This document shows, in pieces, positions 1-25,496 of a DNA stretch of 30,475 nt. The DNA is from a virus: positions 1 to 30,475 of IMG/VR virus record IMGVR_UViG_3300020207_000104. One strand, given 5' to 3'. Numbering within the stretch: the first letter of the stretch is position 1; every line of letters starts with the position of its first letter. A program made the position numbers and the translations under genes. The notes below the pieces were generated by a model. The model searched no databases. It was not told the DNA's origin and saw nothing but the letters and a program-made list of their open reading frames with translations.

Positions 1-351
1 AACTATAGTTGAAGGATCAATATACCTTAATTGTGGTACTTTAAATTGAGCCATGTCAGTGTTCATTACATATTCTTCGAATGTTAAGCCGTCAACCGCT
101 CTATTTTCTGTGTTCTTATAGTAATTGTAGTAACTAAAGGCTCTTTGCCATGGATTTCTAACACAGCAGAAAATAGTATTTCTTCTTATCCTGTGTGGTG
201 TAGGTAACTGGTTAAGCATAAAATGTTTTCCTTGCCATGACTTTGGCTTATACCATTTCCCTTTGCAATTATCAATTAGCCAGTTACTGATACTTGTTCC
301 AGCATTCTTTGGAATGTGGATGAATATTGAATCATCTGTGAGTATAGTCAT
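1..351 (-). CDS. Sulfotransferase-family protein (3' end truncated by window edge)
   Basis: Reading the minus strand from the ATG at 351 gives 117 open codons that run off the left edge. The N-terminus reads FIHIPKNAGTSI, the phosphosulfate-binding loop typical of sulfotransferases that use PAPS. About 50 residues later CCVRNPWQRAFSYY matches the second (3'-phosphate-binding) motif, with the expected R and S. Both motifs are in the right order and spacing for the Sulfotransfer_2 type family, so the fold call is strong; the acceptor is unknown. The start overlaps the stop of gp4 by four bases (ATGA, 348-351), so the two are translationally coupled. A carbohydrate acceptor, perhaps a glycan made by the glycosyltransferase cassette at 20429-25496, is inference only. 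Confidence 0.75.
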   Translation of the reverse strand, partial: MTILTDDSIFIHIPKNAGTSISNWLIDNCKGKWYKPKSWQGKHFMLNQLPTPHRIRRNTIFCCVRNPWQRAFSYYNYYKNTENRAVDGLTFEEYVMNTDMAQFKVPQLRYIDPSTIV

Positions 352-845
352 TTCTTTTTCTTTCTCACTGGTCCTAGCGGCTTAAGTTTTTTTATAGGTT
401 TCAGTGGTTTTGGTTTTATTCCCATTTTTTCTAAATGTTTTTCTGTCCAGATTTGAAATTGCCAGCCTCTGTCTTTAGCAAATTCACTTGCAGCCTTCCA
501 CTTATTTTGATTTTTCACGTATTCTAAACCTTCAGAAAGGTATGCTTTTGTTTTTCTTCCGGGGTAAACAGGAGGTTTTGTTTGTTTTTCAGGTTTCACT
601 TCAACCAGCACAGTTGTGTTGTTAGTGTATGTTATTTTTAAATCCATAAAATATCGGTGATATCTCTTATCAACGTCGTATAAGTATGGTATAACTATTT
701 CTTCTGAGCTCCATGTCTTAATGTTAGGATTTTCATCACACCACTTAAAACACCATTTTTCCCACATAGATCGATAGACTACATTAGAGCTGTCTCCTCT
801 ATATTTCTTCTTATTTTTAACTGTGTATCTTCCTTTATAACTCAT
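348..845 (-). CDS. 4: Head completion nuclease, T4 gp4-like
   Basis: A 165-residue protein of the T4 gp4 (gp50/65) family, which completes DNA-filled heads before tail joining. Visible family signatures are YRSMWE near residue 25, KWCDENP, WSSEEIVIPY near 45-54, HRYFMDL near 63-69 and VEVKP near 80-84. The order E, D, then ExK resembles a PD-(D/E)XK nuclease core, as in TnsA-like enzymes. The C-terminus is a Lys/Pro-rich basic tail. The ATG at 845 (MSYKGRY) is preferred because homologues I recall begin with M-A/S-YKG and a GGA lies just upstream; an in-frame ATG at 854 has no visible ribosome site. It is transcribed away from the baseplate genes and overlaps the sulfotransferase start. Confidence 0.85.
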   Translation of the reverse strand: MSYKGRYTVKNKKKYRGDSSNVVYRSMWEKWCFKWCDENPNIKTWSSEEIVIPYLYDVDKRYHRYFMDLKITYTNNTTVLVEVKPEKQTKPPVYPGRKTKAYLSEGLEYVKNQNKWKAASEFAKDRGWQFQIWTEKHLEKMGIKPKPLKPIKKLKPLGPVRKKKK

Positions 846-853
846 AGGATCCA

Positions 854-861
854 TATAAATA
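854..861 (+). promoter_or_regulatory. T4-type late promoter -10 box (TATAAATA)
   Basis: An exact TATAAATA, the T4-family late promoter consensus recognised by the gp55-type sigma factor, lies 33 bases upstream of the ATG at 895 and points into the baseplate operon. The same box recurs in front of five other genes in this window. Confidence 0.8.
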
Positions 862-876
862 CTGATAAGATTTTTC

Positions 877-884
877 TATTTATT
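877..884 (-). promoter_or_regulatory. Possible divergent late promoter (AATAAATA on minus strand)
   Basis: The minus strand reads AATAAATA here, one mismatch from the late consensus, about 30 bases upstream of the gp4 start at 845. The position fits a late promoter for the gp4/sulfotransferase pair, but with one mismatch in AT-rich DNA this is tentative. Confidence 0.35.
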
Positions 885-894
885 GGAAGTTTAC

Positions 895-1857
895 ATGGCT
901 GAATTACAATTTCCTATCTCAGGACAAGACAAATACAAGGGTCGAATTAGATTTGACGTATGGAGAACCATTCCTCCCACAATAACTCAAAGAGCTCAAA
1001 GAGCTGTAAATGATGCAATATCCAGCGCTGATGCAGCGTTAGGTGGAGGAACACCTATTATAAGCTCAAATGATCCAAATGATCCACGTGGTCCTAATCA
1101 AATTCCATCTTTAGATGATCCAAATGTGGGTATTGGCTCAGGGGCATTTGTTGGCAAATCACAAGAAATAAGAACTGGTAATATGTGTAGCATCTACATG
1201 CCACAGTCAATACAAATTCAAGATGGTGTTCAAATTGAAAACGTAGATTTAGGAGTGTTTGGATCTACACTTGAAGCAGGATTGAAAGCAGGCACCGCAC
1301 CTTTAGAAGCATTAGTTAATTCAGCCGGAGCTACGTTTAGTTCAATTGCAGATTTTTTTAGAGGTAATTTAACACAAGATGCAGCTAGAGCAGCTGCTGC
1401 AAGGCTTTCGGGGATGGTCAGTGATGGTGCTATTAGTGGAGCAGTTAGATCAGCACTTCAAACTACACCAGCACCAAACACTAGAGCAATTTTTAAAGCT
1501 GTAAACATTAGAGAATTTTCTTTTCAATTCACTATGATTCCAAAGACTCAAAGAGAAGCTCAGGAAATTGTCAACATTATTAAATTTTTTAGGACTGAGT
1601 TATATCCTGAAACAATTAAAGCTGGAAATATTCCTGTAGCATATAAGTTTCCAAATAAGTTTGCCATATCAATTGAGTACGATGGTAAGTTAGTGGCAAC
1701 TCAAATATTAAAATCATATTTACGTAATTTTCAAACCAACTATAATCCTTCTTCAATGGCATTTTTTGAAGATGGAAATTTCCAAGAGATTCAGATCGCG
1801 ATGAGTTTCGTAGAATCCAGAACATTGGACAAAGACGATATTGCTGGAGGTTTCTAA
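895..1857 (+). CDS. 48: Baseplate tail-tube cap/initiator protein, gp48/gp54-like
   Basis: A 320-residue structural protein. The C-terminal half carries the pattern I associate with tail tube and tube-initiator proteins of T4-like phages: FSFQFTMIPKTQREA near 210, then FFRTELYP, PNKFAISI, and the ending NFQEIQIAMSFVESRTLDKD. The middle is rich in Ala and Gly, and residues 63-71 (DPRGPNQIP) repeat a motif also found in the gp5 protein. The open frame begins at a TTG at 883, but the ATG at 895 with GGAAG a few bases upstream is the better start. A late promoter lies upstream and the stop overlaps the next start (TAATG). It could be the gp48 or the gp54 equivalent; position next to gp53 and sequence do not separate these firmly. 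Confidence 0.6.
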   Translation: MAELQFPISGQDKYKGRIRFDVWRTIPPTITQRAQRAVNDAISSADAALGGGTPIISSNDPNDPRGPNQIPSLDDPNVGIGSGAFVGKSQEIRTGNMCSIYMPQSIQIQDGVQIENVDLGVFGSTLEAGLKAGTAPLEALVNSAGATFSSIADFFRGNLTQDAARAAAARLSGMVSDGAISGAVRSALQTTPAPNTRAIFKAVNIREFSFQFTMIPKTQREAQEIVNIIKFFRTELYPETIKAGNIPVAYKFPNKFAISIEYDGKLVATQILKSYLRNFQTNYNPSSMAFFEDGNFQEIQIAMSFVESRTLDKDDIAGGF

Positions 1858-2603
1858 TGGCTTATTTTCGAAATTTTCCTATCACTAATTATCAATTCGG
1901 TGATTCAAAAAATATTACTGCTATTCAAGATCTCACCGCATATATTGATATAATTGATAGAGTAAGAGACGATGCTGCATTTTACCAAATGTACACAATC
2001 CTTCCAAAAGAAAGACCTGATTGGCTATCTTTCAAGCTTTATGGTGACACTAGATTCCATTGGACATTTTATTTACTAAATGATAAAGTCCGCCGTCAAG
2101 GCTGGCCTTTAGATTATAATCAAGTAGTAGAAAAGGCAAAGAAAGATTATCCTAACGAAACATTTACATTTGATGAGTTAATGCATGATCAATTTCTTGT
2201 AGGCACTACATTTGAAGGATTAACAAGCGGAGCAACTGGAAAGATTCTAAGAAGAAATCTAGACTTAGGACAAATTACATATGAAAGAACGAGTAGTTCT
2301 AGCTTTACAAGCGGTGGAGAGGTAGTCGTTCAAAAAGATACGTTTGGCAATGTCACGAATAGTGGAAATGGTACATCATTTGTAAAAGAATATCTTGCAG
2401 CTCATCATTATGAAAATGCTGATAAAGAAACAGTAGACATTGATCCATTAATTGGACCAGGTGTTCTTTTAACAGAAATTACATACTTGGACAGATATGA
2501 ACGAGCTAATGACGAGCTAAAAGAAATTAAAGTACTTAGACCAAATGTAATTAATGATATTGACCAAGCATTCCAAGAAGCATTAACAGGTACTGATGGA
2601 TGA
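1857..2603 (+). CDS. 53: Baseplate wedge protein gp53
   Basis: A 248-residue homologue of T4 gp53, which locks the baseplate wedges together around the hub. Family features are the N-terminal FRNFPITNYQF, a helical stretch ending in YTILPKERPDWLSFKLYGD (about 46-64), HWTFYLLNDK and GWPLDY (81-87), and a C-terminal helix ELKEIKVLRPNVINDIDQAF. T4 gp53 is about 196 residues; the extra length is largely an inserted small beta-rich module at about residues 114-160 (GTTFEGLTSGATGKI onward), similar in pattern to a segment of gp8. The start overlaps the upstream stop and its own stop overlaps the next start (ATGA), so translation is coupled. Confidence 0.85.
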   Translation: MAYFRNFPITNYQFGDSKNITAIQDLTAYIDIIDRVRDDAAFYQMYTILPKERPDWLSFKLYGDTRFHWTFYLLNDKVRRQGWPLDYNQVVEKAKKDYPNETFTFDELMHDQFLVGTTFEGLTSGATGKILRRNLDLGQITYERTSSSSFTSGGEVVVQKDTFGNVTNSGNGTSFVKEYLAAHHYENADKETVDIDPLIGPGVLLTEITYLDRYERANDELKEIKVLRPNVINDIDQAFQEALTGTDG

Positions 2604-3907
2604 GCGAAGCAACACCCTTTGATTTTGAAATCGTTAGTGCTGTTGTGTCTGCAAACAGAATGTCTTTTGTAGTAGACTTAGCACGTGTCATTTCAGAAAT
2701 TAATATATTTGAACATGTCGATAAACCATTCTTAACTGGAAACATTTTGTTCAATGACAATGCCGGTCTCTATAATGAGGTAAACTGGCAAGGAACAGAA
2801 ACACTTTCACTTACTATCCGCACTGATCAATCTGGTGATTTTACTATCAATCGTAATTTTCGAATTACGAATGTCAAGCAATCAATAAAATCTAATGATA
2901 ATAACGAAACGTTCTTGATGGAATTTATTGATGAGTATGCTTGGTTATCATCAACTATCAATGTTAATAAAGCATATCAAGGTAAGTGTAAAGATATAAT
3001 TACCGGCATTGTAACCGATACCCTTGGCATAGAAGTTATGAGTCAAAATAAACCTGATGCGTACAAAGACATGCGAGTCTTAGTTCCTAATATGTCTCCA
3101 CTTCAAGCAGCAATGTGGATAAAGGATAGAGCACGTGATGTATACGGATCTCCATATTTTCTTTATGCATCGATTGCTGATGAAAGATTACGATATATTG
3201 ACTTAGAAACAATTCTTTCTCTTGGACCACTTAATAAAGGTCGAGACTACATATTTGCTCAACCATTTGGTTCACAAAGTCCAAAAATGGATTTCGAAGA
3301 TCAGTGCTTTATTATACAAACTTATAGACAACCTGAATCCGAGAACCTACTTAGGTTATCAAATCAAGGGTATGTTGGTGCTGAATGGGAATTTGTAGAT
3401 CCTATCAAAGCTAATTCATATAAAATTAAGCATGATATTCAAAAATCATTTAGCAGTATGGTGACAAGAGGCGTATTTCCATCAACACAAAACGTACCAG
3501 TATATGATAATTCCTCAGGCTTACATACCTCAACTGCTAGACATATAACACAACTTGCTGGTAGTCGGACATATATTGGAGCAAATAATATTTATGAAGC
3601 TGAAAACAGCATGGAGCACCAAGAAAAAGTTACATCAAAAGCGTTAAGAAATTTTCTCTTAAAAAGTCCAGTAGACATAAACGTACCAGGCAAAAATTTC
3701 TTCTTAAGAAGAAAAAATATGACAATTGGTAACACAATAAATGTGATGTTTCAAATTAATGATGATACTGATGGTGGAAATGTTGTAGACTATAAGAGAT
3801 CAGGTCAATACATGGTGTATTCAGCAAGACATGTGTTCACGGCAAATAGATACACTGTAAACTTAACTTGTGCTAAACTAGCCACAGGTTCTAAACGTGG
3901 AGTATAA
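2600..3907 (+). CDS. 27: Baseplate hub protein, gp27-like
   Basis: A 435-residue protein placed between gp53 and gp5, where a hub protein that holds the gp5 spike is expected. The N-terminal region (FDFEIVSAVVSANRMSFVV, then SEINIFEHVDKPFLTGNILF) looks like the first beta-barrel of gp27/gpD-type hubs. The centre has CKDIITGIVTDTLGIEV and MSPLQAAMWIKDRA, a helical pattern also common in such hubs. The C-terminus (NMTIGNTINVMF ... YMVYSARHVFT) is a likely second barrel. T4 gp27 has 391 residues. Direct motif identity to T4 gp27 is weak, so the name rests on position, length and pattern. The start shares ATGA with the gp53 stop. Confidence 0.65.
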   Translation: MSEATPFDFEIVSAVVSANRMSFVVDLARVISEINIFEHVDKPFLTGNILFNDNAGLYNEVNWQGTETLSLTIRTDQSGDFTINRNFRITNVKQSIKSNDNNETFLMEFIDEYAWLSSTINVNKAYQGKCKDIITGIVTDTLGIEVMSQNKPDAYKDMRVLVPNMSPLQAAMWIKDRARDVYGSPYFLYASIADERLRYIDLETILSLGPLNKGRDYIFAQPFGSQSPKMDFEDQCFIIQTYRQPESENLLRLSNQGYVGAEWEFVDPIKANSYKIKHDIQKSFSSMVTRGVFPSTQNVPVYDNSSGLHTSTARHITQLAGSRTYIGANNIYEAENSMEHQEKVTSKALRNFLLKSPVDINVPGKNFFLRRKNMTIGNTINVMFQINDDTDGGNVVDYKRSGQYMVYSARHVFTANRYTVNLTCAKLATGSKRGV

Positions 3908-3909
3908 CT

Positions 3910-4854
3910 ATGAGTTTGTTGGATGATAGAATTCCTAAAATTATAGAAAATCACCACTATGGTGATGAAACAAGATGGTGGCTAGGGAAATGTGTAAATA
4001 ATCGAGATCCAGATAAATTAGGAAGAGTTCAAGTTAGAATTTTTGGTATACACTCCGGAAGTCAAGCCGACATGCCTACATCAGTCCTACCTTGGGCACA
4101 GTGTCTAACTCCAAGCACAGAAGGTGGAGTGTCTGGAAAAGGAAGATATTCAAAAATATTACCTGGTGCTGAAGTGTTTGGAATAATGCTTGATGGTAAA
4201 AATTCACAGTGTCCACTTGTACTTGGTACGTTACACTATAAAGAAAATGGATCAGGCCGAGTACCAAAACATTCAAATGCTGGCCGACAGGATAGAGTCT
4301 ATGATCCAAGAGGTCCACATCAAATACCGGGTTACGATAGCGGTATACCAAATGGTGAAATAGATACTGCACTATCAGGTGGCACAAATGCTGAAAAGAT
4401 TTTTAACTTCTTTACAGCTCAAGGATTTCAACCGAATCAAGCTGCAGCATTTGTTGGCAATTTCTATGCTGAATCGAACTTAGATCCTAAAGCTCTAAAT
4501 CCTAATGACAAGGGAAAGCCTGCGTTTGGATTAGCTCAATGGAGAGGTAGTCGTTATGATGACCTAATAACATATTCTGAAGAGGTTGGATTGCCCCCTG
4601 ACTCACTTACAACTCAACTTAATTTCGTTATGCATGAATTAAATACAACCGAAAGCCAAGCGCATGGTAAAATAAGAGCGAGCGGATCAGTTGGAGATGC
4701 TACGACTGTAGTAAGTAGATATTATGAAAGACCTGAATTTACATTAACAAATGGCGCATATAATAGTCCAAGCTTACCTACTCGTCAAAATGTAGCAATG
4801 GATGCATATAACAGATTTGCTTCGAATGGAGTAGCAGTTGGTGGAGGTAACTAA
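3910..4854 (+). CDS. 5: gp5-like hub protein: OB-fold domain plus phage tail lysozyme
   Basis: A 314-residue two-domain protein. Residues 22-110 form the gp5 N-terminal OB-fold that docks on the hub (WWLGKCVNNRDPDKLGRVQV, FGIHS, LPWAQ, LPGAEV). Residues 160-305 match the phage tail lysozyme family (Phage_lysozyme2): NAEKIFNFF, AAAFVGNFYAESNLDP with E188 the likely catalytic acid, then PAFGLAQW at 204-211. The lysozyme cuts peptidoglycan glycan strands as the spike crosses the cell wall. Unlike T4 gp5, there is no C-terminal beta-helix; it is encoded separately at 6423. The linker has DPRGPHQIP (132-140), shared with the tube-cap protein. GGAG lies about eight bases before the start, and the stop overlaps the next start (TAATG). 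Confidence 0.85.
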   Translation: MSLLDDRIPKIIENHHYGDETRWWLGKCVNNRDPDKLGRVQVRIFGIHSGSQADMPTSVLPWAQCLTPSTEGGVSGKGRYSKILPGAEVFGIMLDGKNSQCPLVLGTLHYKENGSGRVPKHSNAGRQDRVYDPRGPHQIPGYDSGIPNGEIDTALSGGTNAEKIFNFFTAQGFQPNQAAAFVGNFYAESNLDPKALNPNDKGKPAFGLAQWRGSRYDDLITYSEEVGLPPDSLTTQLNFVMHELNTTESQAHGKIRASGSVGDATTVVSRYYERPEFTLTNGAYNSPSLPTRQNVAMDAYNRFASNGVAVGGGN

Positions 4855-6413
4855 TGAGCGTGAACGTACAAATTTCTTTACCATCACTAAATGAAGTTCT
4901 TGGAAATATTCCAGCATTTTCACAGTTACAAAAAGTAGAAAGTGAAATACAGAATGCTGCAAATCAATTTAGCTCAGCACTACAACGAGGAATGGTCTTA
5001 GGTAGGTCAAGAACTACTATCAATGGGCTAGAATCTCTTACTTCAAATGTAGATTTAACGAACACAGGCCTAGGCATTAACGTCGCAGCCGAGTTCAATT
5101 TTGGAGTAGTGCGTATTAGAGCATCAATGCCAGGATTCTCAAATATTCTAATCAATACACAAAATTTTTCTGCTGATTTGAGATTAGTTACTGGAAGAAC
5201 AACTTTTCCAACATCATTTGAACCAAATGAAATCGTTATTGCAAGCACTTCAAGAGCAATCAAATCGAATGTTCACAACATTACAGGCAAAACGCCTAAC
5301 TATGACAAAATCGTTGCAGATACCATAGATCCACAATACAGTTCATCTGCAGCAGCTGCATACAATGCAGTTAACACTACAACAGGTGCATTAACTGAAA
5401 TCGTAAATTCGGTTTCATCATCTGTGAGTGGCTTATCATCAACCATTTCGACTTCGCTTGGTGATGTATCCGTTACATATGGTAAGCTCGATAATGCTGC
5501 ATTACAAGTCGATAACTATATCGAAAGAGAAATCCGTTCATTGACAAGCAATACAATACCAGAAGAAGATGTTAGATTCGCTACACAAGCAATTGCAGAT
5601 GGTCGGCCAGAAGTTGCAGTTCAGATTATGCAGCCGTACTCTACAGTTGACTTTGCAAAGCTAGAAGAAGACGTTCATGCTGTGCCATCATCTCCAACAA
5701 GTCAAATCGGTACTCCATCTGGTACACAAACGACTGTATTAGGTGGTGGTCTTGGTACATCAACTCACACACCAAAAGTCATTGGTGGTGAAACTGCGGG
5801 ATGGCAAGGTCGGTCTACACCTTCAAACTGGTCAGGATTCAACGAAGTTAATTCAATTGAAGAATTGATTGCAGAATTTCTTCAGTGCAAAAGACCAATC
5901 ACAGAGTTCGTTGTTCATTGGACAGCTCACTACCTCGATTCAGAAGGAGTGGGAGCTGCACGTGTTCACCAAGATATGATTAGTCGAACAGATATTCAGT
6001 TTGCAGGACTAGGATATCACTACATTATCAAGAGAGATGGTACAATCGAAAGAGGTAGACCGCTTGGAATTCAAGGAGCACATGCTGCTGCTGGAGGACA
6101 TAATAAGCATTCAATAGGAATATCTTTCGTTGCAGGATATAATTGTACGAGTGGTACACCGAATCCGAATAAGTTCATTAGTGCAGATTCAATTACGAGT
6201 CCTCAGTTTGCGGCATTCGATGACTGGTGTAGAGCATTCTATCAAGTGTTTCCAGCTGGTCAAGGATTCGGTCATAATGACACTGATCCGAATCGAAAAG
6301 TCGATCCGGGATTCAATGTACCTGAATATTTAGAGACAAAATTTGGCAAAAGAAATGTGATCGCCGCGGCACAAGGTCCGCTTTCACCTGAACAACTGAC
6401 AGCAATAGTATAG
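4854..6413 (+). CDS. Baseplate hub-associated N-acetylmuramoyl-L-alanine amidase
   Basis: A 519-residue protein lying between the two halves of the gp5 spike. Residues 1-230 have no domain I recognise; they are rich in Ser, Thr, Ala and Asn, with a low-complexity stretch at 160-215. Residues 280-325 are a Gly/Ser/Thr linker. Residues 345-500 form a type 2 amidase (T7 lysozyme/PGRP fold): FVVHWTA with H355, GLGYHYII at 386-392, DGTIERGRP, H410, GHNKHSIGI, then GHNDTDP with H474 and DPGF with D484. H355, H474 and D484 are the probable zinc ligands, with Asp instead of the Cys used by T7 lysozyme. It probably cleaves peptide stems during entry, next to the lysozyme of the preceding gene. A release role is less likely given its place in the hub operon. 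Confidence 0.8.
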   Translation: MSVNVQISLPSLNEVLGNIPAFSQLQKVESEIQNAANQFSSALQRGMVLGRSRTTINGLESLTSNVDLTNTGLGINVAAEFNFGVVRIRASMPGFSNILINTQNFSADLRLVTGRTTFPTSFEPNEIVIASTSRAIKSNVHNITGKTPNYDKIVADTIDPQYSSSAAAAYNAVNTTTGALTEIVNSVSSSVSGLSSTISTSLGDVSVTYGKLDNAALQVDNYIEREIRSLTSNTIPEEDVRFATQAIADGRPEVAVQIMQPYSTVDFAKLEEDVHAVPSSPTSQIGTPSGTQTTVLGGGLGTSTHTPKVIGGETAGWQGRSTPSNWSGFNEVNSIEELIAEFLQCKRPITEFVVHWTAHYLDSEGVGAARVHQDMISRTDIQFAGLGYHYIIKRDGTIERGRPLGIQGAHAAAGGHNKHSIGISFVAGYNCTSGTPNPNKFISADSITSPQFAAFDDWCRAFYQVFPAGQGFGHNDTDPNRKVDPGFNVPEYLETKFGKRNVIAAAQGPLSPEQLTAIV

Positions 6414-6422
6414 GATAAGAAA

Positions 6423-8441
6423 ATGACAACCGAAAAAGATGACTTACAGGACAGAATTGCTGCTCAAGGACAAGGAAAAGTCAACTCAGATGGCCGTACA
6501 TCAGACGCCTGGGGTGATGCAAGTGGTATATATCCTCAATATGGACCAAACGAATCAGGTGTCAATCGTGCTGCACGTGGCGAAAAAATCAATAATCTGG
6601 ATGTCAAAACCACTGTTCCAAACGTAGAGCATAATATCACACAAGATGTTGCATCAATATATCCAAAGTCAGATGTCAACGAGTCAGAAACAGGACACGT
6701 CATTGAGATTAATGATACACCCGGTGGCGAAAGAATTCTCATACATCATAACACTGGCGCAGGGTTCGATATTCGTCCTGATGGTACAATCGTCATCAAT
6801 TCAAAGAACAATAACGTCGAATCAACGGACGGAAACAAGTATATGGCAATCGGCGGAGATGGTAAAATCACTGTCTTCGGTAACCTCGATCTTGATGTTC
6901 GCGGAGATATGAGTGTCAAGGTTGGTGGAAATCTCAATTGGAGAGTCAATGGATCGATCGTTGGAAGCCTCGTTGGCTCAATGATTTCTCGCATATCGGG
7001 ATCAGTTCGGAGAGTCATCACAAAAAATCTTCAAGATCAGGTTCTGGGTAATATCTTCAGCCTCGGTCTTGGTGGGCTTACAAGCTATGTCAAAGGCGAT
7101 TACAAAGTCGTCAATCACGGTGCGATGTCACTCTTCTCAAAAACAAAAACAAGAATCTCATCAGAAGAAGAACTCGACGTTGCATCAAACAATATCAATA
7201 TCGGAGCAAGAGATCTCACAGCAATCGGAGATACCGGCACAATCGGCGGACAGAACATTATTTACTATGGCTACAATGGCCATTTCCAAAAATCTCTCTA
7301 TGCAGAATCGATGTCAGCAGATACCTTTCATGGAGATCTTACAGGTACAGCAACTGGAGCAGTTCGAGCAGGAACTGCATCTTTCGGCGCTTCTCATGGT
7401 GGATCCGTTACAAATACTGCTCTTGATACAAAAGCTACTGTCCTTCCGACTGGTGCATTAATGAACGATTTCCTTGATAATTCAGAAGCAGGTATCACAA
7501 AAATTAATATCGATCCAGATGGATCTCTTGCAGAAGGTATCGATGGTACAAAACTCAATGGAGGAGTTACAGATAGAGAACTCACGACAGAAGAAACAAG
7601 AGCAAGACTACGGAATCCAAACCATCTCGCTAATACAGACTTCTATACGAGTCAAGTAGCTGCAGGTAACCTCGCACCTAATTTTGCCAACTCATCTCCT
7701 TCGTCCATAGGGAGAGTCATCGCTACTACTGATAATACCTATACAGGTGAAAACCCTATTGGCCAATTGCCAGAAGATGGATTCCGTGGTACCACATTCT
7801 CTCAGACAGAATCAGCAGGCCAAGCCCGTAATCTTACGATACAGGTAGAAGGACGGTATAACCCTAGTCGTTGGACTTCTATTATACCGAATACACCACT
7901 ATCGAATAAGCTTACTCTGGCCAACTTCCTTGGTGGATATGGAGATGTAGCGAATATAAACCATATTACAGACCTTGAAGAAAGAAGACAGATTCTTCGA
8001 AACCTCTTGCCCCATACAGGATTTGTTAATCTATTCAACACCTTAAAGAGTATGGCAGGACACAATCTAGTAATCACAGAAGGGCTGTACCGACCTAGCG
8101 AGACTGAGACAATAGATCCAGATTCTATATTAGATCTAAGGCAGACTGGTAGAGCGGTTGCTTATGAAGTACATAACAATACAACAGGATTACTATCACC
8201 AGAGAAATTATTTGATTTTGCTCGATTAGTCAAGAATGCAAGTCAGTTTAATGAACTCTCGCTTAGATATGATACATTCGATCCAAGTGGCAACCAACAT
8301 GTTTCTCTTATAATAACGACACCTGTTATACCAGAGGATTTGTCAGCAAGATTCGAACAGAAGCTATCGACATACTATAACGAGGTACTACAGTCAGCCA
8401 CATCGTTAGTCGAAATGAGACCTGCAGTAGGGGGCTTTTAA
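6423..8441 (+). CDS. gp5 C-terminal spike protein (beta-helix) with degenerate M15-like domain
   Basis: A 672-residue protein carrying the spike part of gp5/VgrG. Residues 91-127 match the start of the gp5 C-terminal needle (GHVIEINDTPGGERILIHH, GFDIRPDG), and 140-265 form short repeated beta strands (GNLDLDVRGDMSVKVGGN, then NGSIVGSLVGSM) expected of a triple-stranded beta-helix. Residues 545-632 resemble a hedgehog/DD-peptidase M15 domain: ITEGLYRPS, then LRQTGRAVAYEV where the family has H..GRA.D, and QHVSLI near the end. The first zinc His and the Asp are replaced (Q574 and Y581/E582), so it is probably not catalytic. The 330-540 segment is unassigned. Codon use in the first two thirds favours C-ending codons, unlike most neighbours. 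AGGAT precedes the ATG. Confidence 0.75.
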   Translation: MTTEKDDLQDRIAAQGQGKVNSDGRTSDAWGDASGIYPQYGPNESGVNRAARGEKINNLDVKTTVPNVEHNITQDVASIYPKSDVNESETGHVIEINDTPGGERILIHHNTGAGFDIRPDGTIVINSKNNNVESTDGNKYMAIGGDGKITVFGNLDLDVRGDMSVKVGGNLNWRVNGSIVGSLVGSMISRISGSVRRVITKNLQDQVLGNIFSLGLGGLTSYVKGDYKVVNHGAMSLFSKTKTRISSEEELDVASNNINIGARDLTAIGDTGTIGGQNIIYYGYNGHFQKSLYAESMSADTFHGDLTGTATGAVRAGTASFGASHGGSVTNTALDTKATVLPTGALMNDFLDNSEAGITKINIDPDGSLAEGIDGTKLNGGVTDRELTTEETRARLRNPNHLANTDFYTSQVAAGNLAPNFANSSPSSIGRVIATTDNTYTGENPIGQLPEDGFRGTTFSQTESAGQARNLTIQVEGRYNPSRWTSIIPNTPLSNKLTLANFLGGYGDVANINHITDLEERRQILRNLLPHTGFVNLFNTLKSMAGHNLVITEGLYRPSETETIDPDSILDLRQTGRAVAYEVHNNTTGLLSPEKLFDFARLVKNASQFNELSLRYDTFDPSGNQHVSLIITTPVIPEDLSARFEQKLSTYYNEVLQSATSLVEMRPAVGGF

Positions 8442-8570: not shown

Positions 8571-8578
8571 TATAAATA
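8571..8578 (+). promoter_or_regulatory. T4-type late promoter -10 box (TATAAATA)
   Basis: An exact late-promoter box 20 bases upstream of the gp25 ATG at 8599, within the 157-base gap after the spike gene. It starts the second baseplate transcript. The rest of the gap (8442-8570) shows no convincing gene; an AT-only hairpin with six to seven pairs lies at 8534-8549. Confidence 0.8.
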
Positions 8579-8598: not shown

Positions 8599-9042
8599 AT
8601 GGCAAGAAGATCGTTCGCAGTAGAGGATGGAAGTTTAAATACTCCGGCTATTGTTACGAGTAGAGCCCGAGCTTATACGGATATCGATCTACTGTTTAAA
8701 GCCAAGGGAAACGGAGATCTATATAAGAAGAATGATGCTGCCGCAGTAAAGCAAGCAGTCAAGAATCTAATACAGACTAACTTCCATGAGAAGCCGTTTG
8801 CTCCTTACTTTGGTGCGAATCTGAGAAACATGCTTTTTGAATTAGCAGGGAATGATGTAGATTATATTGTACAAGAAGATATAAAAGCTGCCATTGCTAA
8901 TTACGAACCAAGAGCAGAAGTAGTAGGAATAGATGTCATTGCTCGACCTGATAATAATAGTATCGGAGTAACGTTGACTTTTAGAGTAAAGAATACGGAC
9001 GAGAATGTCGTTTTAGAAACATCAATATCAAGGTTAAGATAA
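8599..9042 (+). CDS. 25: Baseplate wedge protein gp25
   Basis: A 147-residue member of the GPW/gp25 family, which sits at the inner end of each wedge and nucleates sheath assembly. It shows the family order: a DIDLLF segment near 27-32, AVKQAVKNLIQTNFHEKPF (about 50-68), PYFGANLRNMLFELA, and the conserved NYEPRAEV near 100-107, followed by two beta strands. Length is close to T4 gp25 (132). A GG-containing AAAAGG lies about eight bases upstream of the ATG and a late promoter just before that. The next gene follows after one base. Confidence 0.93.
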   Translation: MARRSFAVEDGSLNTPAIVTSRARAYTDIDLLFKAKGNGDLYKKNDAAAVKQAVKNLIQTNFHEKPFAPYFGANLRNMLFELAGNDVDYIVQEDIKAAIANYEPRAEVVGIDVIARPDNNSIGVTLTFRVKNTDENVVLETSISRLR

Positions 9043-10906: not shown

Positions 10907-11868
10907 TGAAAACTCTTAGTGATTTAAATCGTTTACCAATTACTATGAAACGAAGTCTGGTAGGAGATGTCTTACCAGAATATTGGTCTTCTGAATATCC
11001 TAATCTAATTTCTTTCCTTGAAGCTTATTATGATTTCTTAGATAGTGATGAGAATTTTGGTGAACTCATTGAAGATCTTTATACAATAAGAGATATTGAA
11101 GAAGCTACTCTTGATCAAATAGATTTAATGTTTAAAGAAATTGGTATGGGTGTTGCTCATACTCAGTTTACATCACCAAGAGAAGTGATAAGAAACTTTG
11201 GTAGATTCTTTCGAGTAAAAGGTACAGAATACAGCGCCGAAAATTTCTTCCGTGCATTCTTTAATGAAGACGCTTGGCTAGAATATCCTAAGCATAACTT
11301 ATTTACAGTTGGTCAATCTACATTAGGTATTGATGGATTAGATGTATTACAAGATGGTAAACTAAATCAGATTTTATCTGTTCTTGTAAAATCTCCAATC
11401 TCAATTGCAACATGGGGTAATTTATATCGAAAGCATGTTCATCCAGCTGGTTTTTATCTAGGCGCTGAAGTTTTAATCACAACTTTATTTGATGTAGGAG
11501 CATCAGCTCCAATTGTTGTTTTAGATTCTGATGGCGAGGTTATAGTTGAAGAAGTTACAACCTTCTTATCACAAGGTGCAGAACAAGATCTAACTCTACT
11601 ACAAACAATGGGCGCAACCATGTATGTATTAGATTCAATACAAAATAGATTAATATGGACAAACATGGATGGGCTGTACGAATATGATTCGAGTTATACA
11701 GATAGAAATGCAGATTCTACACAAGAAGTCTTTAATGTTAGACTTGATCCAAGTATTCAGATTAGAGGATATAAAGATATTGTAATATCTGATTTTGATA
11801 GTGATTATACATCTATTTATGATTTAATGGAAGCATCTTATGACTTTGAACCATCGGTTCGGGTATAA
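10906..11868 (+). CDS. Baseplate wedge protein, gp7/tail protein I-like
   Basis: A 320-residue protein between gp6 and gp8, the position of gp7 in T4, although T4 gp7 is over 1000 residues. The N-terminal 130 residues look like a tail-protein-I/gp7 N-terminal wedge domain: LPEYWSSEYPNLISFLEAYY, LIEDLYTIRDIEEATLDQID, then GRFFRVKGTEYSAENFFRAFF. This part would clamp around gp6. The middle and C-terminal parts are beta-rich with many Asp and have no motif I recognise. It shares TAATG with gp6, so it is co-translated. A gp7 role is inferred from position and the N-terminal pattern. Confidence 0.6.
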   Translation: MKTLSDLNRLPITMKRSLVGDVLPEYWSSEYPNLISFLEAYYDFLDSDENFGELIEDLYTIRDIEEATLDQIDLMFKEIGMGVAHTQFTSPREVIRNFGRFFRVKGTEYSAENFFRAFFNEDAWLEYPKHNLFTVGQSTLGIDGLDVLQDGKLNQILSVLVKSPISIATWGNLYRKHVHPAGFYLGAEVLITTLFDVGASAPIVVLDSDGEVIVEEVTTFLSQGAEQDLTLLQTMGATMYVLDSIQNRLIWTNMDGLYEYDSSYTDRNADSTQEVFNVRLDPSIQIRGYKDIVISDFDSDYTSIYDLMEASYDFEPSVRV

Positions 11869-20428: not shown

Positions 20429-21178
20429 ATGGGAAACAAAATCATTTACCTCAGGTGGGGTGAAAGATACACTGAAGAGCATGTATCACAATTATTCGAT
20501 AAAGTAAATAAAAATTGTTCAGTTGATTTTGAATTTACTACAATTGAAAGTGTTCATCTTGGTGATGAATTTGATGAACTTGCAAAAGGTCAAAAAATTT
20601 GTTTTAGAGGAACGCAGGATCCAGAATCTTCAGTAACAGACAATCCTAATCAAGATTATTGTAGAGAAGACGCTGGTGGCATGGCTCATTGGCGTAAATA
20701 TCTTATGTTTAACCGAGATGTTGAGCAATTTAGTGAAGAAGATACTTTATTATATTTAGATTTAGATACACTTATAACTGGAGATTTAGCTTACTTTTTT
20801 GATTTAGATATGTCTAAGCCATATATTGCTCGAAGCTGGCAATTTGAAATAGACAATTTATGGAGAAAGCTCTATAATCTTAGAAGTTGTCCTTATTTTA
20901 ATAGTTCAGTTTTAGTTTGGAAACCAGGTCAATGTTTACCTGTTTTTGATGAAATGATGAAACAATATTGGAATATGATGTTATCATATGGAAGCAATGA
21001 TAATTGGCTATTCCATAGATTTGGGCCACATACTTTTTCAGATGAAAATAGAAACTTTTTTAATTGGTTTCCAAAATATACAGTAGCATCTGATTCTCGC
21101 TTTGTTAAAGAAGGCGAAACAATTATTCACACTTTAGCTGGATTAACTATGTCTGAAAAGAATAAATTATGTTTATAA
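20429..21178 (+). CDS. Glycosyltransferase, GT-A fold (cassette gene 1)
   Basis: A 249-residue transferase. The N-terminus IIYLRWGERYTEEH and KNCSVDF form a nucleotide-binding region shared with cassette genes 3 and 4. GGMAHWRKYLMF comes near 87-98. LYLDLDTLITGDLAYFF contains the metal-binding DxD (D111, D113). CPYFNSSVLVWKPGQ and WLFHRFGPH complete the core. These are the marks of GT-A enzymes that transfer a sugar from a nucleotide-sugar using a divalent metal; donor and acceptor cannot be read from sequence. No membrane segment is seen. The stop lies ten bases inside the next gene. It is much more similar to the 22483 gene in its C-terminal half than to the others. Confidence 0.8.
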   Translation: MGNKIIYLRWGERYTEEHVSQLFDKVNKNCSVDFEFTTIESVHLGDEFDELAKGQKICFRGTQDPESSVTDNPNQDYCREDAGGMAHWRKYLMFNRDVEQFSEEDTLLYLDLDTLITGDLAYFFDLDMSKPYIARSWQFEIDNLWRKLYNLRSCPYFNSSVLVWKPGQCLPVFDEMMKQYWNMMLSYGSNDNWLFHRFGPHTFSDENRNFFNWFPKYTVASDSRFVKEGETIIHTLAGLTMSEKNKLCL

Positions 21179-21819
21179 TAGATGATTACAATATTAATGA
21201 TAGTTTAGTTGATAGTCTATTTGCATTAGATGAAAACTGTCCATGGATGAAAATTGATTTTTATAGATCATTATCTAAACGTAAATTACAAAAAAATATG
21301 TGGTTATATGATCAATTAACAAATGTTATACACGATCCAACTATAATGTCTAGAGTAAATTGGTTAGCGCCTGGTTTTTGTTATTATTCTTCTATAATTT
21401 TAGATAAATTGGGTTTCAAAGATATAAAATTTTATGATTATGATCCTTCAGTTAAATACGTTAATTATCAATCTACAAAATTAATTAAAAATGCAAATGT
21501 AGAACATATTATGTTAGATGTAGTATTTGATAGAGAATTTATTAGAAAAGATCCAGATTTAGTAGTTTGTCTTTCTATGTCATCTCTTGGAAATGATTTT
21601 TTTATGCTTAATGAAAATTATAAAAATAATCCTATGTTTGCTTTAATGGGTTCTAGTAAATGTAAACGAGGAAATATTCATGTTTTTGAGAGTATAGATA
21701 AATTCATAGAATCAACTGGAATTAAGAATATTTTATATTCCGGTGAAAAAAATATACATGGAGAAATTTATTATTTGGTAATAGGGCATAAGGAAGATGA
21801 TGGATGCTACAAATTATAG
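21169..21819 (+). CDS. Methyltransferase-fold protein with degenerate SAM loop (cassette gene 2)
   Basis: A 216-residue paralogue of cassette gene 5 (23264). Equivalent positions include CPWMKIDF, RVNWLAPGFCYYSS where the partner has a glycine-rich SAM loop, then IKFYDYDPS (acidic end of strand 2), VVFDREFIRKDPDLVV, KRGNIHVFESIDKFIESTG and the terminal YLVIGHKE. The loop here keeps only one glycine of the partner's GGIG, so cofactor binding may be changed or lost. It starts within the end of the preceding transferase and overlaps the next start by 16 bases, which indicates coupled translation. A class I methyltransferase relative is likely; activity is uncertain. Confidence 0.6.
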   Translation: MFIIDDYNINDSLVDSLFALDENCPWMKIDFYRSLSKRKLQKNMWLYDQLTNVIHDPTIMSRVNWLAPGFCYYSSIILDKLGFKDIKFYDYDPSVKYVNYQSTKLIKNANVEHIMLDVVFDREFIRKDPDLVVCLSMSSLGNDFFMLNENYKNNPMFALMGSSKCKRGNIHVFESIDKFIESTGIKNILYSGEKNIHGEIYYLVIGHKEDDGCYKL

Positions 21820-22499
21820 TTTCTAAGTGGGGAACATTATATGGTGAAGAATATATAGATCGCTTAAAAGAAAGAATTGAAAAAAATTGTAGTGTACCCT
21901 GGAATTTAACAGTTATAAGAGATCATGAAAATGGTTGGGGAGATTATAGTAAAAAACATTATAGAGGTGAAGGAGAACCAAAAGTAGTTCAAGGTGAAGG
22001 ATTTCAAAATGGATATCACCATTATAATTTAGGAGGAATTCCTTTATATAGAAAAATGTATCCATTTGGTATGGACGATCATTGTCATGAAGATGATACA
22101 ATTATGATGATGGATATAGATATGTTAATCACTGATGATTTAGCATATTTTACAACTTTATCTACTGATAAACCGTGGATTCAATTTGATTATGATACAC
22201 CAGAATGGGAACTTATGGATGATTATAAAAATCAAAATATAACTCCGTTAAATAGTTCTGTAACAGTATGGCGAAAAGGTCAAATGAGACCAGTATACGA
22301 TTTCGTTAATAAATTTAAAAATGAAGTATTTTTTACATATAGACGTGTCGATGCTTATCTTTGGTATTGTTGGGGAGTAAAAGACTTCTTTAATTATTTA
22401 CCAGTTGAAGCTGTTGATTGGTATTATAAAGGAACAAATGCAATTGTAAGAAATATGGCAGGTGAAAAGATTGAGTTGAAGAATGAAGTGGTTGTATAA
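21804..22499 (+). CDS. Glycosyltransferase, GT-A fold (cassette gene 3)
   Basis: A 231-residue paralogue of cassette genes 1 and 4. Visible motifs are IIVSKWGTLYGEEY and KNCSVPW at the N-terminus, KKHYRGEGEP and QNGYHHYNLGGIPLYRKMYP in the middle (shared most closely with gene 4), MMMDIDMLITDDLAYF with the DxD at D104/D106, and NSSVTVWRKGQ. It lacks the FHxFGP block of genes 1 and 4, having YLWYCWGVKDF in that place. AAGGAAG lies before the ATG, inside the previous gene. Substrates are unknown. It overlaps the next reading frame at its 3' end if that gene starts at 22483. Confidence 0.78.
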   Translation: MLQIIVSKWGTLYGEEYIDRLKERIEKNCSVPWNLTVIRDHENGWGDYSKKHYRGEGEPKVVQGEGFQNGYHHYNLGGIPLYRKMYPFGMDDHCHEDDTIMMMDIDMLITDDLAYFTTLSTDKPWIQFDYDTPEWELMDDYKNQNITPLNSSVTVWRKGQMRPVYDFVNKFKNEVFFTYRRVDAYLWYCWGVKDFFNYLPVEAVDWYYKGTNAIVRNMAGEKIELKNEVVV

Positions 22500-23277
22500 T
22501 ATAATGAATCCTAGACCTCCTAGAACGTCTACAAGCAAAAATAAAATAGTGTGTGCTCGATGGGGAAAACTCTATGGTGAAAAAGATATTGATGATTTAT
22601 ATGAAAAAGTGAAAAAGAATTGTTCAGTAGATTTTGATTTTGAAATATTTGATAACTTTAAAAAATATAAACATTGGGAAAGAGCAAAGAAAAAACATTA
22701 TAGAGCTTCTTTACAACCTGATGAAAGGTTCGATGCTGTTCAAAATGGTTATCACCGTGATGATTTTGGAGGAATTCCTCATTATCGTAAAATTACAATG
22801 TTTGACCAAGATAAAAAATTTAATCCAGATGATACAATATTATATCTTGATCTGGATACAAATATTACTGGTGATTTAGCTTATTTTTTTGAAGAGATTA
22901 ATCATGCTAGGCCATATTTAGTTTGGAATTATTGGTGGGACAAAGATGATGGTATTGAGTGGAAAAGGCAATATCATGTTACTCGTTGTCCATTATTTAA
23001 TAGCTCAGTTATGGTTTGGAAACCAGGTCAAAATGAAGCTATATATAATTTTGTAGAAAATAATTTAAATGAATGTTTTTATACTTATCCTTCTATGGAT
23101 ACTTTTATGTTCCATAATTTTGGACCTTATAGTAATCCAGAAAGAAGAAATCATTTTAATTATTATGATGAAGGTATAGTCACTTCACAACGAGTATTAG
23201 GTCATGATAAGCCTGGGATTATTAATATGCTCGAAGGGCTAAGTGCAGAAGAGAAACATAAACATGTATCACATTGA
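22483..23277 (+). CDS. Glycosyltransferase, GT-A fold (cassette gene 4)
   Basis: A 264-residue transferase with IVCARWGKLYGEKD and KNCSVDFDF, KKHYRASLQP, QNGYHRDDFGGIPHYRKI, LYLDLDTNITGDLAYFF (DxD at D123/D125) and CPLFNSSVMVWKPGQ, ending with MFHNFGPYSN. Protein and DNA in the DxD and NSSV regions are close to cassette gene 1, and like gene 1 it is followed by an overlapping methyltransferase-fold gene. Two starts are possible: 22483, inside the preceding gene, or the ATG at 22504 just after its stop; the paralogues do not settle it because both give an N-terminal extension. Confidence 0.8.
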   Translation: MKWLYNIMNPRPPRTSTSKNKIVCARWGKLYGEKDIDDLYEKVKKNCSVDFDFEIFDNFKKYKHWERAKKKHYRASLQPDERFDAVQNGYHRDDFGGIPHYRKITMFDQDKKFNPDDTILYLDLDTNITGDLAYFFEEINHARPYLVWNYWWDKDDGIEWKRQYHVTRCPLFNSSVMVWKPGQNEAIYNFVENNLNECFYTYPSMDTFMFHNFGPYSNPERRNHFNYYDEGIVTSQRVLGHDKPGIINMLEGLSAEEKHKHVSH

Positions 23278-23884
23278 AGAAAAAGATGTAGATAGATTCC
23301 AAAAAATACTTGATCAACTTAAACATACTTATCCATGGGATGGAATGCATGCTAATATCTGCGCTCAAGTAGGACCAATTGAATTTCAAATTCAAAAATG
23401 GTGGGCAGATAGAATAAATTGTATAGATCAAAGAGTAGCTATTTTGAATGGTGGGATTGGTTATTTTTCAGTTCCCTTTGCATATGAAATGGGAGCTAAA
23501 AAAATAGATTTATATGATATGGATCCAATCACAGAAAACTTAAGTTGGTATGTAAATGGAATATACAAACCTGAATTCGTTCACCATCAAAAAAATGTTA
23601 TTTTTGATAAAAGAGAAATTGATAACGCTGATGTGTACATAAATACTAGTTGTGAGCATAGTTATCATATGAGAGATATAATTCCATCAAATCGCCTTTG
23701 TGTAATGAGTGGAAATAATTTAACAGCTAGAGGACATATAAATTTATTTAAGAATATGCGAGCGCTGAAAAAATCAGTAGGATTTAAAGATGTATTATAT
23801 GAAACGACAATGGAATTTACATATCATGATGATATGGGAAAAAGACCATATAAACAATTTTTAGTAATAGGGATAAAATCATGA
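23264..23884 (+). CDS. Class I SAM-dependent methyltransferase-like protein (cassette gene 5)
   Basis: A 206-residue protein with a Rossmann-type core: RVAILNGGIGYFSVPFA is the glycine-rich SAM-binding loop after strand 1, and KKIDLYDMDP gives the acidic residue ending strand 2 that would bind the ribose. ADVYINTSCEHSYHM lies where strand 4 and the active site are expected. The C-terminus FLVIGIKS matches the paralogue at 21169. The frame is open from a GTG at 23243, but the ATG at 23264 is preferred because it fits the paralogue and has a purine-rich stretch upstream; it overlaps cassette gene 4 by 14 bases. It shares ATGA with the next gene. A sugar O-methyltransferase is a reasonable guess from context, not shown by motif. 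Confidence 0.65.
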   Translation: MYHIEEKDVDRFQKILDQLKHTYPWDGMHANICAQVGPIEFQIQKWWADRINCIDQRVAILNGGIGYFSVPFAYEMGAKKIDLYDMDPITENLSWYVNGIYKPEFVHHQKNVIFDKREIDNADVYINTSCEHSYHMRDIIPSNRLCVMSGNNLTARGHINLFKNMRALKKSVGFKDVLYETTMEFTYHDDMGKRPYKQFLVIGIKS

Positions 23885-24783
23885 AAAAGAGAGTTATTTT
23901 TTCAATTTATATTGAAATCCCTGAAGCACTTTTGGATGAAACAGGTTATTCAAAACATGCCGAGAAAAATACGCATAGAGGTGAAAGAGCTGGGGAAACT
24001 AAAGATAAGTTAAAAGCATATAAAAATAGATTGATGTGGAATCAAAAATGGTATGCGGATCAATGTGATGCAGACTATCATATGTACACTTATGATAAAC
24101 AGTTTTTAGAATATTATCGTTATTGTAAAGGTGTTCACGATAAGCTTCCAATGTATCATATTGTAAATTATTATAAGAATCATTTGCTTCAAGAATTAGC
24201 GAAAACTTATGATGAAGTTTTTTATATGGATATTGATATTATTCCTAGAACAAAAGATAATATATTTGAAGTCCACAATATGAATAAGCTTTGGGCAAAG
24301 AATAATAATGATTTAGCTGAGTGGAGTAAGCACTACGATTTAACAAAATATAATAGTTGTGATAGAAACCCTGGTATAAAATATTGGAATTGTTATGCTC
24401 TTTTAGTTCAAAACGGACATGATCCTGAAAACGACGTTATTAACACAGGAACAGTAATTGGCGGTAAAAAAGCAATTATGGCAATGAATTGGCAAGGGGA
24501 ATTTGAAGGATTAGTTGCTGATATGTTAAAATTACAAGAAGATGAAGCAACAATGTTTCCTGAAGCACTACATTCAAGGTTTGCATTCGATAATGAAACC
24601 ATGTTTAGTTATTTAGTAAAAACTAAAAAATTAAAGTATGATACTTTAGATGATATTTGGCATGGAAGATTGCCAGATGATGGAGTAGATCCAAGACATA
24701 AAATTATTCATGCTATTAATAAGAAGTTTGAATTAATTTGGGATGATGTTCCATATGATGGAAGAACTTTAGGAAAATCATAA
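23881..24783 (+). CDS. Glycosyltransferase-like protein, GT-A fold (cassette gene 6)
   Basis: A 300-residue protein of a different subfamily from genes 1, 3 and 4. It begins RVIFSIYIEIP, has a helix with YHIVNYYKNHLLQELA, then EVFYMDIDIIPRTKD with the DxD at D117/D119, and NTGTVIGGKKAIMAM near 180-195, which is the usual second conserved block of GT-A enzymes acting on a metal-bound nucleotide-sugar. DNETMFSYLV and HAIN near the end fit the acceptor-side region. No membrane segment. It overlaps the upstream stop (ATGA) and the downstream start (TAATG). Confidence 0.7.
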   Translation: MKKRVIFSIYIEIPEALLDETGYSKHAEKNTHRGERAGETKDKLKAYKNRLMWNQKWYADQCDADYHMYTYDKQFLEYYRYCKGVHDKLPMYHIVNYYKNHLLQELAKTYDEVFYMDIDIIPRTKDNIFEVHNMNKLWAKNNNDLAEWSKHYDLTKYNSCDRNPGIKYWNCYALLVQNGHDPENDVINTGTVIGGKKAIMAMNWQGEFEGLVADMLKLQEDEATMFPEALHSRFAFDNETMFSYLVKTKKLKYDTLDDIWHGRLPDDGVDPRHKIIHAINKKFELIWDDVPYDGRTLGKS

Positions 24784-25496
24784 TGCCTATTACAACACAT
24801 TCTTCAGGTGAGACTAATCAAGCACAAAAAATATTTGTTTTCAGAATGGGAAAAAAATATGGTGAAGAGTATGAAGAATACTTAAACCGAAAACTAAAGG
24901 GAAGATATGATCTTGTTTGGATAAGAAATCCATTAGATTCAAAAGTAGCATTACAATGGAATAAAATGTTTCTTATGAATTTAGATTATATTGACCCCAT
25001 TATTGTAATGGATATTGATATTTTATTAGAAAATAATTTCCATGAATTATTTGAATATCCTATTCAAAGAGGTGAATTTTTATCAATTCCAGCGTGGTGG
25101 AATGAAAGAGCTGGATATTTACTAAATGGCGGGTTTTTTAAATACTATCCTAAAGACTGTAAATACATTTTTGATGAATTTATTAATAATTCTAAGCATT
25201 GGCAATCACATTATATTAAAGAAGGTATTACAATAGGTCCAGTAAATGGTGAGCAATATTTTGTTGAAGATCAGGTTAAGAAACACTTAGATTTAAAGTT
25301 TGTCCCTAAGTCATGGGTAACTAGATGGACGAATGATAGTAGCAAAAATATGAAAATTGCTGATAGATGGAGAAAAAAGGTAGAAGATACACAATTATTT
25401 TACCATGAAAAAAATAAATTTAACGAAAATGTGAAATTTGTTCATTTTACTACCTCTTTAAATAAACCGCACGAATCGAAATTATATAAATACTAG
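24783..25496 (+). CDS. Glycosyltransferase-like protein, GT-A fold (cassette gene 7)
   Basis: A 237-residue distant paralogue of cassette genes 1, 3 and 4. It keeps IFVFRMGKKYGEEYEEYL at the N-terminus, NKMFLM where the others have RK-x-x-x-F, IIVMDIDILLENNF with the DxD at D77/D79, and LLNGGFFKYYP in place of NSSV-x-VWK. VEDQ at about 160-163 is a possible catalytic-side acidic segment. KFVHFTT near the end matches the HTLAG or NMLEG block of the others in position. The KNCSV block is missing. The late promoter of the next gene lies in its last codons. Confidence 0.7.
   Translation: MPITTHSSGETNQAQKIFVFRMGKKYGEEYEEYLNRKLKGRYDLVWIRNPLDSKVALQWNKMFLMNLDYIDPIIVMDIDILLENNFHELFEYPIQRGEFLSIPAWWNERAGYLLNGGFFKYYPKDCKYIFDEFINNSKHWQSHYIKEGITIGPVNGEQYFVEDQVKKHLDLKFVPKSWVTRWTNDSSKNMKIADRWRKKVEDTQLFYHEKNKFNENVKFVHFTTSLNKPHESKLYKY
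25485..25492 (+). promoter_or_regulatory. T4-type late promoter -10 box (TATAAATA)
   Basis: An exact box 28 bases upstream of the ATG at 25521, embedded in the final codons of cassette gene 7. It restarts transcription for the fibre genes after the cassette. Confidence 0.8.

Follow-up and report, generated by a model that had tools for sequence, protein, structure and literature searches.

How a contractile tail opens the cell wall when its central spike is encoded in pieces is the question raised by the window studied here, a 30,475-base stretch from an uncultured virus (IMG/VR record IMGVR_UViG_3300020207_000104, positions 1 to 30,475). Its spike cassette consists of three genes, encoding an OB-fold protein with a lysozyme domain, a protein with an amidase domain, and a needle with a trimeric beta-helix. 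An earlier sequence-only reading recognized these three parts and overlooked a long C-terminal part of the needle, which ends in a degenerate M15 peptidase domain. We think it fairly likely that a separate hub amidase took over wall cutting, and that the old needle peptidase was kept as a structural pseudoenzyme of this T4-like central-spike cassette. This and all other conclusions rest on sequence and predicted structure. The features that carry the proposal are the following.

3910..4854, + strand: OB-fold and Phage_lysozyme2 protein (gp5 N-terminal half), 314 residues
~4384-4818, + strand: lysozyme domain, with the codon of the catalytic Glu188 at 4471-4473, from alignment to phi29 gp13
4854..6413, + strand: amidase protein, 519 residues
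4854..5843, + strand: N-terminal part of the amidase protein (~330 residues), modelled mostly as helix, with no Pfam or PHROG match
5892..6311, + strand: Amidase_2 (T7-lysozyme type) domain, PF01510, with H355, H474 and D484
6423..8441, + strand: needle protein, 672 residues, with a GFxDPxGxYP-type linker (residues ~27-65), the gp5 trimeric beta-helix (~77-292), a low-confidence middle part (~280-470) and the M15-like C-terminus
7860..8417, + strand: degenerate M15 peptidase domain, residues 480-665, with R573 at the place of the zinc His and A580 at the place of the zinc Asp

The cassette was compared with a set of 414 loci, gathered from IMG/VR scans with the window proteins and their relatives (best 80 matches per list) and from named records. 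L followed by a number (L012, L332 and so on) denotes a locus of this set. Domains were called with Pfam and PHROG profiles, the Pfam cut-offs being 25 bits for Gp5_OB and 30.9 bits for Gp5_trimer_C. Locus counts are redundant, since some contigs are present more than once, and distinct-sequence counts are given where available; all counts are of related sequences and not of independent events. Genes cut by a locus end and M15 sequences of 110 letters or fewer were left out of the counts (63 of 64 used with hhalign), and near-copies and short rows were left out of the trees.

The needle was identified by the gp5 needle profile (PHROG 430, 1.4e-25), which matches T4 gp5 at residues 384-555 (E 2e-22); Gp5_trimer_C reached 21.9 bits, below its cut-off. 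Where relatives lack an amidase gene, many needles run on into an M15 peptidase, recognizable by the motif SxHxxGxAxD and by a His further along. Loci without an amidase match gave 64 distinct M15-domain proteins, four of them from isolates and a few lacking a needle in their frame, and 60 of the 64 retain the full set of three ligands. Of the four exceptions, three are cut by the contig end, and the last, in L202, has two M15 matches, the aligned copy being without ligands. A further arrangement, OB and needle in one frame with no M15 match, is present in 13 of the best 80 loci (for example L206 and L209).

Alignment of the last ~190 residues of the window needle with the relatives' M15 domain by hhalign gave a score of 50.2 (E 5e-7), where 100 column shuffles reached at most 25.0, and with four M15 sequences the score was 37.0 against 17.3. 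The alignment shows 17-18% identity and is colinear over 114-151 columns. A structure aligner placed needle residues 457-643 on Hedgehog N-domains (Z 5.8-6.3, root-mean-square deviation 3.0-3.8), which share the LAS fold with M15 enzymes. A Foldseek search with the needle monomer model, which is of low confidence over much of its length, returned no match at E ≤0.001. As judged from these alignments, the C-terminal domain is related to M15 and lacks the zinc ligands, and we do not class it as a peptidase.

The loss of the zinc site extends across the clade. Of 139 distinct clade sequences 136 are readable, and all 136 lack both the His and the Asp of the motif, with Arg, Ala, Lys or Gln at the His place and Val, Ala, Tyr, Gly, Phe or Leu at the Asp place. 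Since a dead-domain profile had served to collect these sequences, intact domains were sought separately; among the amidase loci an intact M15 motif was found in L332 only, in the second domain of its amidase protein. Between the window and L012 (one pair), the ratio of nonsynonymous to synonymous substitution rates (dN/dS) was 0.138 for the dead domain, 0.148 for the amidase domain, 0.164 for the beta-helix and 0.386 for the middle part, which places the dead domain under purifying selection. In 218 loci this domain is joined to the needle and in 45 it is a gene of its own, and this, together with its constraint, suggests that it still does something. The free-standing gene follows a shorter needle gene, as at L362:7642-8283, L393:8134-8775 and in 43 other loci. 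A further 16 loci have the dead domain but lack an amidase gene; in every one of them the needle, or what is left of it, starts at contig base 1 to 733.

The amidase protein gave an Amidase_2 match (PF01510) at residues 347-486 (1.7e-12). Its model has a predicted local distance difference test score of 84, and superposes on T7 lysozyme (1lba) with Z 17.2 and a root-mean-square deviation of 2.3 over 137 aligned residues. The residues H355, H474 and D484, which we take to be the zinc ligands, are intact in the window and kept in 132 of 137 distinct complete amidase proteins. With its zinc site intact by alignment, the window amidase is a predicted enzyme. The five amidases that have lost the ligands while the gene is kept are those of L173:1304-2866, L177:5352-6845, L329, L330 and L334, and all five loci retain the lysozyme Glu.

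For the N-terminal ~330 residues no Pfam or PHROG family was found, and structure searches with the whole protein returned matches to the amidase domain. Kinship of this part with a 451-residue protein at the same place in phage C48C1 was considered and rejected (BLAST E 0.045, hhalign P 0.27; 30 letter shuffles of this comparison gave hhalign P 0.21 to 0.82). A search of 50,697 phage records with the amidase protein found matches in 157 records, none of which covers 80% of the protein. The N- and C-terminal parts are separate frames in three loci (L176, L405 and L409). Two amidase proteins, at L332:2878-5721 and L282:3044-5722, bear a second, M15_3 domain, and the lysozyme Glu is lost in both hubs. 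Longer amidase proteins (631-645 residues) occur in L098, L105, L161, L163 and others; L098, the only one scanned, showed no second Pfam domain.

The OB-fold of the first gene was recognized with PHROG 430 (9e-29), the Pfam Gp5_OB match being below cut-off at 22.4 bits, and the OB profile was aligned to residues 4-102 of the solved T4 gp5. Phage_lysozyme2 (PF18013) matched at residues 159-303 (1.1e-33), so that the lysozyme belongs to this family and not to the T4-type GH24. Window Glu188 aligns with Glu45 of phi29 gp13 (3csr). According to the accessible text of PMC10394673, Glu45 is the suggested catalytic residue of gp13, and mutation of the corresponding Glu in a related family showed it to be essential. 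By this alignment the catalytic residue of the window lysozyme is intact, and activity is predicted.

The same residue is often lost in related hubs. Among 119 distinct OB-lysozyme/amidase pairs the Glu is kept in 80 and lost in 39 (three of the 39 are gapped in the hidden Markov model alignment), and the hidden Markov model and MAFFT alignments agree on its presence in 119 of 119. The Gln of a nearby GLAQW motif accompanies it in 79 of the 80, and is found in 3 of 27 listed sequences without Glu (27 of the 39). A tree of 74 representatives requires five changes to account for the loss, and well-supported branches force at least four of them. In ten further loci the OB protein has no match to a PF18013-type lysozyme. 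The label 'tail lysozyme', when given from the domain match alone, is probably wrong for about one third of these OB proteins (39/119).

When the two enzymes were scored together, both were intact in 75 of the 119 pairs; only the lysozyme Glu was lost in 39, only the amidase site in 5, and in none were both lost.

The cassette genes are tightly packed. The OB-lysozyme and amidase frames overlap by 1 base, and the amidase and needle frames are separated by a 9-base gap. An amidase-domain gene is present in 292 of the 414 loci. An upstream hub gene was identified in 256 loci. In 246 of these an OB gene lies ≤50 nucleotides upstream of the amidase gene, the other ten comprising four larger overlaps and six insertions of 1-2.3 kb; a needle gene lies ≤50 nucleotides downstream in 278 of 286 loci, with insertions of 0.7-1.4 kb in the remaining eight. 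Genes of 309-457 residues without a Pfam match were seen between the OB and amidase genes at L268:1904-4200, L275:2946-4229, L278:3245-4246 and L291:3255-4238. The order OB-lysozyme, amidase, needle recurs in IMG/VR contigs down to ~30% identity, so the three frames are not a sequencing error.

The surroundings of the cassette place it among baseplate genes: tube cap, gp53 and gp27-like genes lie upstream, and gp25 and gp6 downstream.

854..861, + strand: TATAAATA, a late-promoter-like box upstream of the hub genes at 883-8441
883..3907, + strand: tube cap, gp53 and gp27-like genes (PHROG 230, 232 and 350), one unit with the OB-lysozyme, amidase and needle genes
8571..8578, + strand: TATAAATA, a late-promoter-like box ahead of gp25, marking the next unit
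8599..9042, + strand: gp25 baseplate wedge gene, by profile match

By these assignments the neighbourhood encodes a T4-like hub together with the inner wedge. In 38 representatives, TATAAATA lies ≤80 nucleotides before the tube cap gene, the first of the set, in 22 of 23 cases, and before gp25 in 31 of 34, against a background of 0.014 per stretch. It was found at this distance upstream of none of the OB-lysozyme (0/36), amidase (0/38), needle (0/38), gp53 (0/27), gp27 (0/28) or gp6 (0/32) genes. With the box ahead of the hub set and none before the amidase gene, the amidase is probably transcribed with the hub genes, and is probably a virion hub protein. The number of boxes in the window was rejected as evidence, since six against 5.2 expected is not above chance, and their placement over loci alone is informative. 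Further boxes at 11864, 18666, 25485 and 27162 (+ strand), 34 to 284 nucleotides before gene starts, are possibly late promoters.

On the needle tree the M15 needles nearest to the clade, those of Rhizobium phage RHph_I1_18, L222 and L201, are encoded apart from the OB protein, have no amidase match, and stand on long branches. We consider a plausible order to be that gp5 was split, the amidase gene entered between the halves, the M15 zinc site was lost, and the lysozyme sites were lost later. A PAAR tip gene was found in 0 of 11 clade contigs, which may be incomplete, and in 7 of 9 isolate records (one under cut-off), suggesting that the dead domain may serve as the tip. M15 and PAAR matches occur together in Cr30, ZZ01 and Melnitz.

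Comparison with known systems shows which parts of the arrangement are ordinary. Relatives often have the OB-fold, glycosidase, needle and M15 peptidase in one chain. In ten chosen related loci, nine OB proteins gave a glycosidase match (seven GH19, four of these under the Pfam cut-off, and two GH24; none in L207), and an M15 domain follows the needle in all ten. The isolates Cr30, BUCT-ZZ01 and RHph_I1_18 likewise have a glycosidase and an M15 domain. A glycosidase with a stem-peptide enzyme in the hub is thus a common combination, and not the unusual one that had been supposed from the sequence. The split is not special either, as OB and needle are also encoded apart in RHph_I1_18, Melnitz and S-CREM2. 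Strong variation of gp5 among pelagimyophages and cyanomyophages, perhaps fitting host walls, has been described (PMC7029224, accessible text).

The T4 spike tip is the PAAR protein gp5.4, and T4 gp5 is not known to contain an amidase or an M15 domain. Its lysozyme is of another family than that of the window. Like the window proteins, T4 gp5 combines an OB-fold, a muramidase and a triple beta-helix (accessible text of PMC4576200). It differs in being one precursor that is later cut (title of a reference in PMC4576200), whereas the window has separate frames with an amidase gene between them. The sequence-only reading had T4 joining its parts by cleavage, which reverses the course of events. 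What stands of its interpretation is the three genes, the two different hydrolases with intact catalytic residues, and a layout that fits a virion hub. The gene break does not correspond to the T4 cut: a GFxDPxGxYPR segment precedes the lysozyme in T4 (~residues 105-150), but stands at the head of the needle gene here (a weak match, 5-6 bits), and identity of the two sites was rejected on this ground.

Caulobacter phage Cr30 gp5 (AGS81101.1) has the OB-fold, Phage_lysozyme2, the needle and an M15-type C-terminus, but as a single 701-residue chain with the M15 zinc ligands kept, in a genome with a PAAR gene and no Amidase_2 match. RHph_I1_18 resembles the window in its separate OB-lysozyme and needle genes, but a 116-residue gene occupies the place of the amidase, the M15 ligands are kept, and no Amidase_2 match was found. 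Synechococcus phage S-CREM2 also encodes its OB protein (ORF211) and a needle-like protein (ORF212) separately; unlike the window, it gave no amidase or M15 profile match in seven proteins tested, and has a PAAR gene. Both ORF211 and ORF212 are in its virion proteome, where ORF212 is labelled a wedge protein (PMC10665884, Table 3). At L265:17270-18226 this ORF212 is annotated as inner baseplate wedge, yet it matches the gp5 needle profile (5e-14).

More distant parallels join the same functions differently. The phi29 tail protein gp13 has the same lysozyme family joined to a second wall-related domain, but it is a podovirus tail tip and the second domain is LytM-like (PMC10394673, accessible text). 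In the Rak2-like phage CBB, an OB protein with a lysozyme and a possible M23 peptidase adjoins another lysozyme-domain gene (accessible text of PMC5259590), the enzyme families being others than in the window, and that text mentions no amidase. A single 1016-residue protein of Vibrio phage VP-1, A0A4P2TEB5, is named 'baseplate hub subunit and tail lysozyme'; its predicted structure matches that of the amidase protein (E 1.4e-5), which suggests that an isolate may have a hub protein containing an amidase. The VP-1 record was not among the tblastn matches listed. Phage C48C1 (39%) and Pelagibacter phage HTVC008M (34%) rank best among isolates by gp6. In the open-access literature searched, subscription journals being outside the scope, we found neither this amidase protein nor a needle with a dead M15 domain described. 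Within that scope two things are new: a separate amidase paired with a peptidase that is dead yet conserved, and lysozyme sites lost repeatedly.

The explanation that sequencing errors broke a single gene into three frames has practically no probability left: each frame has its own start, the junctions are tight, and the same break recurs in loci with 137 distinct amidases. It is quite unlikely that the needle C-terminal domain is an unrelated cap with a chance likeness to M15. Such a cap would fit the low identity, the lack of a Pfam M15 match in the window needle protein and the Hedgehog Z values, which are middling by the scale of the tool and can reflect a common arrangement; against it stand an hhalign score twice the best of 100 shuffles, the colinearity of the alignment, the LAS fold shared by Hedgehog N-domains and M15 enzymes, and a position in the protein that is the same as that of the relatives' M15 domain.

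Two other explanations, both improbable and of nearly equal weight, concern the amidase. The slightly stronger one takes it to be a lysis endolysin placed by chance in the baseplate gene set and absent from the virion. Its closest solved homologue, T7 lysozyme, is a lysis amidase, many of the tblastn matches listed for the domain are annotated as endolysin, amidase or lysozyme, and 8 of 10 long contigs hold no separate lysin above cut-off (six families searched), so that a lysis role retains some probability. The other two contigs do hold a lysin-like gene above cut-off, M15_3 in that of L174 and GH19 in that of L102; the amidase gene lies within the hub set without a promoter-like box of its own, its product has its own ~330-residue N-terminal part, and lineages keep the gene despite broken zinc sites. 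The other explanation is that the amidase is one more interchangeable hub enzyme, and that the M15 zinc site was lost by drift without replacement. Hub enzymes vary widely among relatives, and L332 and L282 bear a further M15_3 domain. A dead domain as constrained as the amidase domain (in one pair) and encoded by its own gene in 45 loci argues against mere drift.

Several results weigh against replacement of the needle peptidase by a hub amidase. The five distinct amidases without ligands suggest that enzymatic activity of the amidase is not required in every case, and the M15_3 zinc motif of the L332 amidase protein is intact. In L290, the only one of the 16 loci with a dead domain and without an amidase gene where much of such a gene could have shown, 732 nucleotides precede a dead-M15 needle and contain no amidase match; in L301, from the same sample, a 1.4 kb insertion separates amidase and needle. 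On the needle tree (69 rows) a single change accounts for all amidase-bearing rows (support 79/59), so the co-occurrence of amidase and dead M15 may be a single event and not many independent ones. Mutual exclusion of a dead lysozyme and a dead amidase was rejected as proof, the empty cell not being significant (P 0.13).

If a hub amidase did replace the needle peptidase, the OB-lysozyme trimer would sit on a gp27-like ring and bear the needle trimer, itself a distinct polypeptide. The amidase would be a virion hub subunit held by its own N-terminal part. On tail contraction the spike would bring the amidase to the periplasm, where it would cut the stem peptide off the glycan. The amidase would have replaced the M15 peptidase found at the needle C-terminus of relatives, and the dead M15 domain would stay as a structural piece, a tip cap or a dock. 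In part of the clade the lysozyme, too, would have become a pseudoenzyme. We give about even chances to the full combination, in which a large T4-like clade changed its wall-opening chemistry, with the hub amidase as main hydrolase, the needle peptidase fixed clade-wide as a structural pseudoenzyme (a free-standing gene in some), and the lysozyme residue lost about five separate times. The cassette would then be an example of a cell-puncturing device that swapped its enzyme while the fold of the old one stayed as a part. The loci form a natural series, from an intact peptidase, to a dead peptidase with an amidase, to a dead lysozyme as well, which bears on the question of which wall bond a contractile tail must cut.

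Elsewhere, a search of the window record for PF06841 gave no match, and neither did its control; Rfam gave no match in the window. Between tail genes at 20429-25496 lie genes that look glycosyltransferase-like by eye, only one of which matched a profile (GT8, 21.7 bits, under cut-off). On the opposite strand beside the hub genes, a gene at 348-854 (- strand) encodes a TnsA-like endonuclease domain (PF08722, 4e-19), which we take to be probably a gp4-like head completion nuclease.

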